DNA of 64,000 nt from Spirosoma sp. SC4-14 (GCF_037201965.1 NZ_CP147518.1:3961001-4025000); one strand, 5' to 3'; shown: positions 56,361-59,462, counted from the first letter of the stretch. The notes: generated by a model from the letters alone, not told the origin. A program made the numbers and translations.

Positions 56361-57062
56361 ATGCCAGAACCCGACAAATCGCTTGGTCAGAAAATCCTGA
56401 ATTTCTTCATTAAGGAAGAAGGCCCCAACGTTGCAACAGGCACACCGCCAACCGCAGCACCCACCCAACCTCGTCCGGTTGCCAGTGCTCCAACCCCTGG
56501 TCAACCGCAGCCGCAACCGGCCCCTGCTGTTCAAACGGGCGAGATTGACCCGAAATTCGCAGAGCACCTGGCCAATGTGCTTGCCCAGAACAATCCGCCC
56601 GGTCCCGATTATTTCGAGTTTCGCGAAACCCTGCGTAGCCTTTCTAATCTGGGACTGCCCGAGGACAAGCAGTTTCAGGCAGCCTGGGCGAGTTTTAAAG
56701 CACTTGGTGGCTCAACCGATATTTCGACTCTGACCAAAACGGCAAATCAGTATATTGCAGCGTTGAACACAGACCGGGAGGCCTTTACAAAAAGTGTTGA
56801 AGCAGCACTGGCCGAACGGGTTGGCGGTTTGCAGAATGAGCAGAAACGGTTACAGACCGAAAACGAAGCGCTGGCCAGACAATTGGTAGAGATTCAGCAG
56901 AAAATAAGTACCAACAACGATCGGCTGAGTGCAATTGGGGGCGACATTGCCGAACAAAGCACGAAAATTACGCAGAATCGCCAGAGCTATGATGTAACAT
57001 TTGCCCACTTTTCGGAGCAAATCAAAGGCGACATCAACAAAATTTCCCAATACCTGAAATAG
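56361..57062 (+). CDS. Hypothetical coiled-coil protein (gene 1 of three-gene set)
   Basis: I chose the ATG at 56361 (MPEPDKSLGQKILNFFIKEE); earlier codons in the frame fall in repeat DNA. The 233-residue product has an amphipathic N-terminal helix, then a Pro/Ala/Gln-rich linker (about 26-62), a helical middle part (about 65-140) and a C-terminal coiled coil (about 145-233: LAERVGGLQNEQKRLQTENEALARQ). No signal or membrane segment and no enzyme motif are seen. It is framed by TTTACGG repeats at 56148-56222 and 57069-57141. The next gene encodes a membrane-bound coiled-coil protein, so the two may interact. Confidence 0.75.
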   Translation: MPEPDKSLGQKILNFFIKEEGPNVATGTPPTAAPTQPRPVASAPTPGQPQPQPAPAVQTGEIDPKFAEHLANVLAQNNPPGPDYFEFRETLRSLSNLGLPEDKQFQAAWASFKALGGSTDISTLTKTANQYIAALNTDREAFTKSVEAALAERVGGLQNEQKRLQTENEALARQLVEIQQKISTNNDRLSAIGGDIAEQSTKITQNRQSYDVTFAHFSEQIKGDINKISQYLK

Positions 57063-57068
57063 ATACCC

Positions 57069-57141
57069 GGTTTATGGTTTACGGTTGCGCTGCCTCAATG
57101 AAATGTGTGCAACCAGGCGAAGCAACCGTAAATCATAAACC
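57069..57141. repeat. TTTACGG palindromic repeat, copy 4
   Basis: The left arm 57069-57088 and right arm 57122-57141 pair with one mismatch over 20 bases (GGTTTATGGTTTACGGTTGC against its complement). A second AAACCGAAAACCATAAACCG iteration follows. It lies 6 bases after the stop of the coiled-coil gene and 26 bases before the next ATG, so it must be transcribed or interrupt the two genes. Confidence 0.7.
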
Positions 57142-57166
57142 GAAAACCATAAACCGAACACATAAC

Positions 57167-58180
57167 ATGGCTACTCCTGATTTTTCACAACTTGGTGGCG
57201 GTACGGATAAAGACAAACGCTCGTTCTGGAGCCGCCCCGAAGGTATATTTGGCACGATCGTACTGGCTGCGATTGCGGGTTTCGGTCTGTTCCACCTGAA
57301 CGACATCCTGGAATTTCTGATCCGGGCCACATCGAATATTCTGGAATTGTCGCTACTGCTGGGTGCGCTGGGCGTTCTGATTTTCCTGTTCACTAGCAAA
57401 GATGTACGCACGGCTGTTTTCTTCCTGTTCAAGTCGATGATGCGAAGCATAACGGGTACCGTTATCCAGTTGAATCCAATTGCCATCATGAAGATCTATA
57501 TCGATGATCTGAAAGATAAACGGCAGAAAATGCAGGGACAAATCGATACGCTGGCCGGGCAGCTTGTTAAGCTCAACAAACGGATCAACGAAAACAACGA
57601 GTCCATCAAACAAAAGTTTGCCGAAGCCAATAAAGCCAATTCGATGAGCGATAAGCCCGGTATGCGCGAAACGGCTCAACTGGCAACCATTGAAGGAGCT
57701 GGCTTACAGGAAATGAATGAAAAGCTGCTGCCCCTTCAGCGCAACATAAAGCAGGTACTGGCTTTTATGGAGAAGGTAAATCAGAGCGCCGACTATATTA
57801 TCAAGGAAACTGAAATTAAAGTTCGCCTGAAAGAAACCGAATATAAGATCGTAAAAGAAAGCTCCAACGCCCTTAAAACGGCTGTCAGCATCTTCAAAGG
57901 CGATCCTGATAAGAAGTTTTATTTCGACCAGTCGATGGAATACATACAGGACGATATGAGTCAGAAACTTGGGGAAATGAAACGGGCCATGGACCTGTCG
58001 ATGGATTTTATTAATGGAGTTGATATTCAAAACGGCCTCTTGTCCGACAAAGGGCAGGCGTTGCTGGAAGCCTATAACAAAGGGGAATTTAAGATGGTAC
58101 AGTTAGATGCCCCTGCCCAACCAATAAACCTGGGGCCCGCTCCGCAAAAAGACGCCGGATACAAAAACCTGCTTGATTAA
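57167..58180 (+). CDS. Hypothetical membrane-anchored coiled-coil protein (gene 2 of three-gene set)
   Basis: I chose the ATG at 57167 (MATPDFSQLGGGTDKDKRSF). The 337-residue product has two membrane helices (about 27-48 and 56-75), a possible third hydrophobic patch near 80-98, and a long C-terminal helical coiled-coil region (about 108-300: DDLKDKRQKMQGQIDTLAGQL, EMNEKLLPLQRNIKQVLAFMEKV). The general look is that of PspA-like or membrane-scaffold proteins, but no family is recognised. It sits between a soluble coiled-coil protein and a membrane-anchored actin-fold-like protein. Confidence 0.8.
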   Translation: MATPDFSQLGGGTDKDKRSFWSRPEGIFGTIVLAAIAGFGLFHLNDILEFLIRATSNILELSLLLGALGVLIFLFTSKDVRTAVFFLFKSMMRSITGTVIQLNPIAIMKIYIDDLKDKRQKMQGQIDTLAGQLVKLNKRINENNESIKQKFAEANKANSMSDKPGMRETAQLATIEGAGLQEMNEKLLPLQRNIKQVLAFMEKVNQSADYIIKETEIKVRLKETEYKIVKESSNALKTAVSIFKGDPDKKFYFDQSMEYIQDDMSQKLGEMKRAMDLSMDFINGVDIQNGLLSDKGQALLEAYNKGEFKMVQLDAPAQPINLGPAPQKDAGYKNLLD

Positions 58181-58318
58181 GCTTGAATGATTGACTTGTT
58201 GAATGATTGAACTTCGCTACATAAATCATTTAACTGCCACAGCAGACCATACGTCAACAAGTCAATCACTCATCCAGTCAATCATTCAATAACTCTATCA
58301 TTCAACAATTCAATTATT
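58181..58318. repeat. TTGAATGA-type inverted repeat, copy 2
   Basis: TTGAATGATTGACTTGTTGA and following iterations on the left are mirrored by CAACAAGTCAATCACTCATC and ATCATTCAACAATTCAATTA on the right. It fills most of the gap between the second and third genes of the three-gene set. Copy 1, at 14364-14445, is more regular. Confidence 0.6.
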
Positions 58319-58327
58319 CCTACTTCC

Positions 58328-59383
58328 ATGCAACGTCTAACCGTAGCCGGTCGGCTACTCATCACAGCCCTGATTCTGGCTGGCCTTTACTTTGGGTTCC
58401 GTTATTTTGGTGGTAATGAGGCCCTCCGCAAGCTAGCTCCCAAACAGTCTGAAGAATCGGCATCGATGCCCAAAACAGACGACCAGGAATCGTCTGCTTT
58501 AACGCAGGAAACATCAGCTTCCGACAACAGTTCATCGTCGGGCGCTTCTGATGAAGCAACCACCACGGAGTCTCGCCGGTCGTTCACTTATACTCCGCCT
58601 GCTCCAAACGGCGGAAAGTTGAAGGGTGTTGTAGAGCTGGGAGCCAGTGGTTTCAATTCGTTTATTGTTCGAATCGATGAACAGAAGAACTGGAAGCTCG
58701 AAAAAGCAGAGTTCGGCAATAGCCTGGTAATTGAAAACATGGCATCGGACGAAGACATCCGGTCGGGGCTGAAAAGTTATATTGGCAAAATGCTCGATTA
58801 TGGAGTCGGTAGCCGCGACATTCACTTTGTCGTCAGTTCGGGTGCCGTAAAGGCAGAAGGTACTCAGAAGATCATCAAAGCACTGAAATCACTGAATTAC
58901 TTTGTCAATACGGTAACGCCCGAACAGGAAGGGTCGCTGGGCTTACGCTCGGTATTACCGGCCGATTATTACAGCAATTCATTTGTTGTAGACATTGGTT
59001 CGGGAAATACGAAGATTTCGTGGAAAGATGGTAGTTCGACCAAATCGCTGGAAACCTATGGAGCTAAATATTACCAGAACGGAACCAGCGACGAAACCGT
59101 TACGTCTGAAGTCAAAGCAAAAGCCAAGCAGATTCCGGAAGATCACCGCAAAACCTGTTTCATCATTGGCGGGGTTCCGTTCGAACTGGCCAAAGCTGTT
59201 CGGAATGGAAAAGAACGGTATACCGTTCTCGATGCGCCATCGGCCTACAAACTCGACAATGCCAAATCAAAAGCGGGTTTAAACATTTATAAAGCGGTAG
59301 CAGATGCCACCGGATGCGATCAGTTCGTTTTCGACTGGGACGCTAACTTCACCATCGGCTTCCTGCTGAATTTATCGAAATAA
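58328..59383 (+). CDS. Membrane-anchored protein with actin-fold-like motifs (gene 3 of three-gene set)
   Basis: The 351-residue protein has one N-terminal membrane helix (about 8-28) and a Ser/Thr-rich linker (about 40-85). The globular domain (about 95-351) has two segments resembling the phosphate-binding loops of the actin/Hsp70/Ppx-GppA superfamily: VVELGASGFNSF (101-112) and VVDIGSGNTKI (220-230). VVSSGAVKAEGTQK and TPEQEGSLGL, as in Ppx/GppA-type proteins, lie between them, and FIIGGVPFELAKAV near the end. It may bind ATP or act as a polyphosphate/ppGpp-type phosphatase homologue. This is inferred from motif order, with no full-length family match. Confidence 0.7.
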   Translation: MQRLTVAGRLLITALILAGLYFGFRYFGGNEALRKLAPKQSEESASMPKTDDQESSALTQETSASDNSSSSGASDEATTTESRRSFTYTPPAPNGGKLKGVVELGASGFNSFIVRIDEQKNWKLEKAEFGNSLVIENMASDEDIRSGLKSYIGKMLDYGVGSRDIHFVVSSGAVKAEGTQKIIKALKSLNYFVNTVTPEQEGSLGLRSVLPADYYSNSFVVDIGSGNTKISWKDGSSTKSLETYGAKYYQNGTSDETVTSEVKAKAKQIPEDHRKTCFIIGGVPFELAKAVRNGKERYTVLDAPSAYKLDNAKSKAGLNIYKAVADATGCDQFVFDWDANFTIGFLLNLSK

Positions 59384-59404: not shown

Positions 59405-59462
59405 TCTAGAATATAACGAAGGGCCTGCGGCAGTTGCCGCAGGCCCTTCGTTATATTCTAGA
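59405..59462. terminator. Long perfect hairpin after the three-gene set
   Basis: The arms 59405-59432 and 59435-59462 are perfectly complementary over 28 bases, around a 2-base loop, with a central GGGCCTGCGGCA core. It begins 21 bases after the stop of the actin-fold-like gene, so it is probably its terminator. Its length is unusual for a simple terminator. Confidence 0.75.

Follow-up and report, generated by a model that had tools for sequence, protein, structure and literature searches.

In this study, we analyzed a set of three genes at positions 56361-59383 of a 64,000-nucleotide stretch of DNA from Spirosoma sp. SC4-14 (GCF_037201965.1, NZ_CP147518.1:3961001-4025000), hereafter referred to as the window. 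The host genome is 8.1 Mb in size and has close relatives in Spirosoma. The genes, designated A, B, and C, are consecutive open reading frames (ORFs) on the plus strand, and their start codons were set from homologues (ATG at 56361, 57167, and 58328, respectively). Gene A (56361-57062) encodes a soluble coiled-coil protein of 233 residues, in which an N-terminal amphipathic-looking segment is followed by a Pro/Gln-rich linker, a helical region, and the coiled coil; hydropathy gave no transmembrane (TM) helix, and the family alignment extends over all operon types described below. Gene B (57167-58180) encodes 337 residues, with a TM hairpin by hydropathy (residues 26-44 and 58-76; 57242-57394) ahead of a long PspA/IM30-like helical domain. 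The 351-residue product of gene C (58328-59383) has a single TM anchor by hydropathy (residues 4-22; 58337-58393), a Ser/Thr-rich linker, and a predicted Ppx/GppA-fold domain (approximately residues 96-351); it contains the segments VVELGASGF and VVDIGSGNTKI. An initial annotation, made from the sequence of the window, had described this layout of ORFs, TM helices, linkers, and segments, and we confirmed all of it, the helical domain of B also from modelled helices.

A, B, and C are under strong purifying selection and are not chance ORFs, because the ratio of nonsynonymous to synonymous divergence (dN/dS) relative to Spirosoma terrae was far below 1 in all three (0.16/2.9 for A, 0.04/2.4 for B, and 0.06/1.7 for C, with dS saturated). 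C was found in 39 of the 59 relatives searched, including all 36 genomes of the genus. A relative of C is encoded in 433 genome-contig stretches, of which the best 80, biased toward close relatives, were kept for locus counts. A, B, and C were adjacent, in the same order, and on one strand in 66 of these 80 loci. The initial annotation had named the lack of such joint conservation in related genomes as refuting, so this outcome is in its favour. Where C lay apart from A and B, B was present elsewhere in the genome in all 11 loci tested, and it stood directly behind A wherever that region was inspected. Among 194 genomes of the order, B occurred in 35, C (strong matches) in 29, and both in 21 (odds ratio 28, Fisher p = 7e-13, relatedness not corrected). 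Of the three genes, A is shared by nearly every operon variant. A conserved hydrophobic protein of approximately 167 residues, designated D, directly follows C at locus L037 (9121-9624) and at 44 other loci (L and G numbers are our own identifiers). D has no Pfam match, adjoins a divergent B in L206 (5332-5838, minus strand), and is not next to C in the window; it is likely a further component of the module.

The AlphaFold model of C (pLDDT 83.6, pTM 0.73) shows a Ppx/GppA fold, which belongs to the actin superfamily. In a Foldseek search of this model against the PDB, the best 37 matches were all Ppx/GppA proteins (1t6d, E 2.4e-14), followed by NTPDases. VIA-align gave a Z of 22.4 with the Helicobacter pylori PPX/GppA protein (3.2 A over 247 residues) and a Z of 16-18 with NTPDases; the matches listed were confined to Ppx/GppA proteins and NTPDases, so that any match to actin, MreB, ParM, or Hsp70 would rank lower. 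The profile of the C family also matched Ppx in the PDB, and PF02541 was matched at E <= 1 by 29 of 31 family members (best 1.4e-6). The window C itself reached 14.1 bits with PF02541, below the curated cut-off of 27. When C was compared by hhalign with an alignment headed by the Ppx of the host genome, the result was 95%, and TIGR03706 (exopolyphosphatase) matched C weakly (E 0.0045); apart from that match, PHROGs, NCBIfam, and PADLOC gave just weak coiled-coil-type or partial matches for A, B, and C. The structure searches and profiles therefore agree on the actin/Ppx-GppA fold that the initial annotation had proposed and had named beforehand as one of two points on which it could be refuted. 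The host genome has two ordinary Ppx/GppA genes in addition to C. The ecto-NTPDases (GDA1/CD39), the second-best structural match, belong to the same superfamily and share an extracytoplasmic setting with the one predicted for C, but their structural score was lower and no sequence match to them was found.

We next compared the pocket of C with that of the Ppx/GppA phosphatases (PF02541; E. coli Ppx and GppA). By alignment, E201, D222, and K229 of C stand at the positions of E. coli Ppx E121, D143, and E150. E201 ends an EQE segment (residues 199-201; 58922-58930), aligned to the catalytic Glu E121, within a TPEQEG stretch that is common to the Aquifex enzyme. D222 and K229 delimit the phosphate-2 motif DIGSGNTK (residues 222-229; 58991-59014). 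The catalytic set is incomplete, since E201 and D222 are kept whereas K229 replaces E150, the catalytic/Mg glutamate, and Lys was present at this position in 111 of 111 distinct C homologues. The phosphate-1 loop and the TSAxR segment are also changed, the latter with loss of its Arg; the phosphate-1-like motif of C is ELGASGFN (residues 103-110; 58634-58657), in which E103, G105, G108, and N110 are invariant among the 111 distinct sequences. The pocket residues E103, N110, S170-G172, K175, E201, D222, N227, K229, and K247 were identical in all 111, and also in 49 of 49 sequences that were retrieved without the motif as search bait. As the pocket is invariant yet altered, it suggests ligand binding or changed chemistry rather than decay. 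By this alignment, C is a Ppx/GppA homologue with an altered site and not a standard member of the family; it also differs from the known phosphatases in its membrane anchor and predicted extracytoplasmic location.

Mutation of E121, D143, or E150 leaves E. coli Ppx with residual activity (PMC5417653). Yeast Rtg2p, which acts in signalling and contains an ASKHA domain of the Ppx type, has Gln at the position of E150 (PMC5417653). Rtg2p resembles C in this respect, but it is eukaryotic and cytoplasmic and belongs to an unrelated pathway, so the likeness is an analogy only. Because the standard catalytic Glu is lost and an invariant pocket is kept, C is most likely more sensor-like than an ordinary exopolyphosphatase. 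The initial annotation had pictured a nucleotide- or polyphosphate-binding protein; both the family-wide Lys and the predicted location of the domain speak against simple binding of this sort by an enzyme of the cytoplasmic type. C might instead be an active extracytoplasmic phosphohydrolase that acts on polyphosphate, nucleotide, or diphosphate like the ecto-NTPDases, with A and B forming a membrane scaffold that holds or regulates it. The order of its nearest folds, Ppx/GppA and then NTPDases, fits this explanation, and the invariance of E201 and D222 leaves room for an enzyme with altered chemistry, a point that weighs against a receptor. However, C carries Lys at the position of E150, and E. 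coli Ppx mutated there keeps only residual activity; two further segments of the Ppx site are changed, so we consider an active phosphohydrolase unlikely.

By prediction, the C domain most likely lies outside the inner membrane, because lipobox-like homologues exist, the anchor is common to OmpA-bearing and solute-binding proteins, and relatives with the same motif carry Sec-type signals. Two flavobacterial C homologues, that of L129 among them, have a lipobox-like N-terminus. The C anchor of L032 (MKNLTIPGRILITLLFVGFLYGIKWLVLDSGYVLNKEA) aligned to the anchor of an OmpA-bearing solute-binding protein in L175 (MKRLTPLGRITIVALILAGLWGLKWLIMDSGYVMTKQL) with a score of 107 (0/5000 shuffles), and the OmpA domain of the latter protein was matched at E 1.7e-19. 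The proteins that share this anchor carry OmpA domains, and in L178 also an NMT1-type solute-binding domain, and these function outside the inner membrane. Other Ppx/GppA-like proteins of Bacteroidota with the same Glu-to-Lys change (D[IV]G[SG]GNTK, the NTK motif) start with Sec-type signals. Such exported proteins are encoded in L034 (2155-3639, minus strand), L121, L123, L124, and L126, and further ones in L133 (7379-8437) and L134 (6790-7866, minus strand); some are approximately 490 residues long, with a long N-terminal extension. In a tree, most NTK-motif proteins grouped with C and apart from canonical Ppx, whose rows formed long branches. Their sequences suggest that the exported NTK-motif proteins form an extracytoplasmic branch of the Ppx/GppA family that has been little described.

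B is probably a membrane-tethered homologue of PspA/IM30, of the ESCRT-III superfamily. PF04012 (PspA_IM30) was matched by 3 of 22 B members (best 9.4e-9, A3). It was also matched by divergent B homologues in G047 (9.5e-8), in L090 (7.3e-7; 29.4 bits against a cut-off of 33.9), and in L179 (8.7e-4). The matches begin at profile position 23 wherever a range was listed. The model of B contains helices at residues 104-159, 166-240, and 248-284, and residues 103-240 (57473-57886) superpose on VIPP1 24-157 at 1.3 A over 134 residues (Z 10.5, from a low-confidence helical model), in the same register as the PF04012 matches. Several results weigh against this assignment. The window B itself has no PF04012 match, and its model is poor (pLDDT 64.6, pTM 0.42). 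The hhalign comparison of B with Cytophagales PspA was weak (probability 20%, P 0.001) and no better than the control of B against the coiled coil of A; that of A with PspA was likewise not decisive. BAR domains scored as well as VIPP1 on the B model. A BAR-domain identity of B was rejected, as the similar Z had no sequence support, and it was taken as helical background. Of the 23 genera sampled across the order, 12 had a match to PF04012, but the 36 genomes of the window's genus yielded no canonical PspA (PF04012 over the cut-off); B may therefore be the PspA-type protein of the genus. In another family of the order, a PspA-like protein (PF04012, 35.3 bits) adjoins a TerD-like gene (L155, 408-2124, minus strand).

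The partners of A, B, and C are swapped between operons. Besides the window type A-B-C(-D), we found A-B-C followed by a YqiJ-like gene and flotillin in L032. In L175, A-B-C precedes genes for a solute-binding/OmpA protein, a permease, and an ATPase, and in L114 the order is A-B-binding protein-permease-ATPase-C. The same transport genes follow A-B without C in L157, L178, L180, and L181, and in L179, where the contig ends within the operon. In L033, L184, L185, and L186, four genomes of three families, the order is VWA-PP2C-kinase-C-A. The initial annotation had placed the trio in an envelope or membrane-stress setting, which gains support from the PspA likeness of B and from the YqiJ-like and flotillin or VWA-PP2C-kinase neighbours of the relatives. 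The trio of L032 resembles the YqiJ/YqiK (YuaF/FloT) and PspA-band-7 operons (Ravi et al. 2024; PMC9239133) in its YqiJ_N-like and flotillin-like proteins, but we saw this arrangement in one genome only, not in the window.

Ravi et al. 2024 describe TM-bearing PspA/Snf7 homologues in operons with an ATP-binding cassette (ABC) ATPase, a permease, and a PBPB-OmpA solute/peptidoglycan-binding protein (PMC11237479). On the strength of that description, the A-B operons with transport genes and without C are of an already known kind. The likeness consists of a TM-anchored PspA-like protein with a coiled-coil partner and, in L157, L175, L178, L180, L181, and L114, of an ABC ATPase, a permease, and an OmpA-bearing (or homologous) binding protein. 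The window trio differs from the operons described there in that it lacks a transporter, a binding protein, and an AAA+ ATPase and has a TM-anchored Ppx-fold protein. The terms Ppx, exopolyphosphatase, and VWA are absent from the main text of that paper, and C as a partner was not found there; in the open-access literature, we found no link between Ppx and PspA and no exported Ppx pseudoenzyme.

These operons raise the explanation that A-B is an accessory of NitT/TauT-type ABC uptake, and that C captures solute in place of the OmpA-bearing binding protein, with a role in transport and none in stress. The five loci in which A-B precedes binding protein, permease, and ATPase genes, and the two in which C is present as well, would be expected on this basis. 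However, no ABC ATPase, permease, or OmpA-bearing binding protein stands beside B in the window and no transporter flanks A-B-C. A search of the window genome for such a solute-binding protein gave OmpA-domain matches only, and the TerY-P-like operons also lack a transporter. We regard a pure transport role as improbable.

TerY-P triads consist of VWA, PP2C, and STK proteins (PMC11090510), and in the four genomes named above a triad of this kind lies immediately ahead of C and A. The module could accordingly serve Ter-type (TerY-P) signalling in metal, oxidative, or phage stress, in which case a VWA/PP2C/kinase phospho-switch would act through C and A, and the resemblance of B to PspA would be incidental. 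A homologous kinase (57%) in G405 adjoins TerD- and VWA-type genes, in keeping with this idea. On the other hand, the kinase of the triad was found in just 5 of the 194 genomes of the order and is absent from the window genome and from the sampled genomes of its family, no Ter proteins adjoin C, and PADLOC gave no clear match for A, B, or C; we consider a Ter-type role for the trio improbable. A TerY-P kinase in the window genome was rejected as a candidate, as nothing there matched the kinase of the triad. L215 (15-7800, plus strand) contains a Ter-type operon with TerD-like, several VWA, PP2C, and kinase genes, whose kinase is 57% identical to that preceding C-A in L033. The actin-superfamily fold of C would agree with an actin-like scaffold that serves the cytoskeleton or cell shape together with coiled-coil proteins, but C is closest to Ppx/GppA and NTPDases, its domain is predicted to be extracytoplasmic, and no support was found for the cell-shape control that the initial annotation had considered, which makes such a scaffold very improbable.

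As for the surroundings of the trio, an MsrA-like ORF with a lipoprotein-like N-terminus lies upstream of A-B-C, as the initial annotation had pointed out, but this neighbour recurs in 12 loci only, limited to Spirosoma and Fibrisoma. Palindromes are also present in the gaps between the genes, as described there, but they were rejected as part of the A-B-C system. The element in the A-B gap (57068-57142) is not specific to the locus, because it has approximately 49 matches across the genome; it is a dispersed intergenic repeat. Directly 3' of C, a perfect 28-bp inverted repeat with a 2-nt loop (59405-59462) resembles a strong, possibly two-way terminator. Overall, the interpretation of the initial annotation was partly supported.

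On balance, we lean toward the explanation that A-B-C is a PSP-type (phage-shock) envelope-stress module in which a Ppx-fold sensor, C, replaces or supplements a solute-binding protein. B would be held in the inner membrane by its TM hairpin and extend its long helices into the cytoplasm, and A would be its soluble coiled-coil partner at the cytoplasmic face. The single anchor of C would place its Ppx/GppA-fold domain on the outer side of the inner membrane, where it would most likely act as a receptor and recognise a ligand that is anionic or bears phosphate, such as polyphosphate, a nucleotide, or a lipid or cell-wall diphosphate. A signal from the bound ligand would pass through the membrane to B-A and change a PspA-like assembly whose role would be to stabilise or remodel the membrane. 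The computations establish the conservation of the genes, the fold of C, its altered but invariant pocket, and the exchange of operon partners. The ligand, the direction of signalling, the sensing, and the membrane remodelling are inferred. In related operons, the OmpA-bearing solute-binding protein and the ABC transporter that belongs to it may take or share the place of the sensor; elsewhere, C-A may be coupled to the VWA/PP2C/kinase switch. C is also found where B is missing, namely in G144 and in the TerY-P-like operons, which counts against the proposed module. A more far-reaching proposal, which we put forward as speculative and rather unlikely, is that an exported Ppx-fold receptor of Bacteroidota, with its catalytic Glu changed to Lys, senses compounds rich in phosphate beyond the inner membrane, such as polyphosphate or nucleotides released from damaged cells, and thereby switches a membrane-tethered ESCRT-III-like repair machine; by virtue of their common N-terminal anchor, this receptor and an OmpA-type solute-binding protein could replace one another.

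How PspA-type proteins receive envelope-stress signals is poorly known beyond a few model systems. The trio is a concrete candidate for such a pathway: B would be the tethered PspA-like component, A its conserved partner in the cytoplasm, and C the exported Ppx-fold protein with the traits of a sensor. The Bacteroidota would, on this reading, also possess a group of exported Ppx/GppA proteins with the NTK motif, and the alteration of their pocket points to a ligand that differs from the usual substrates.

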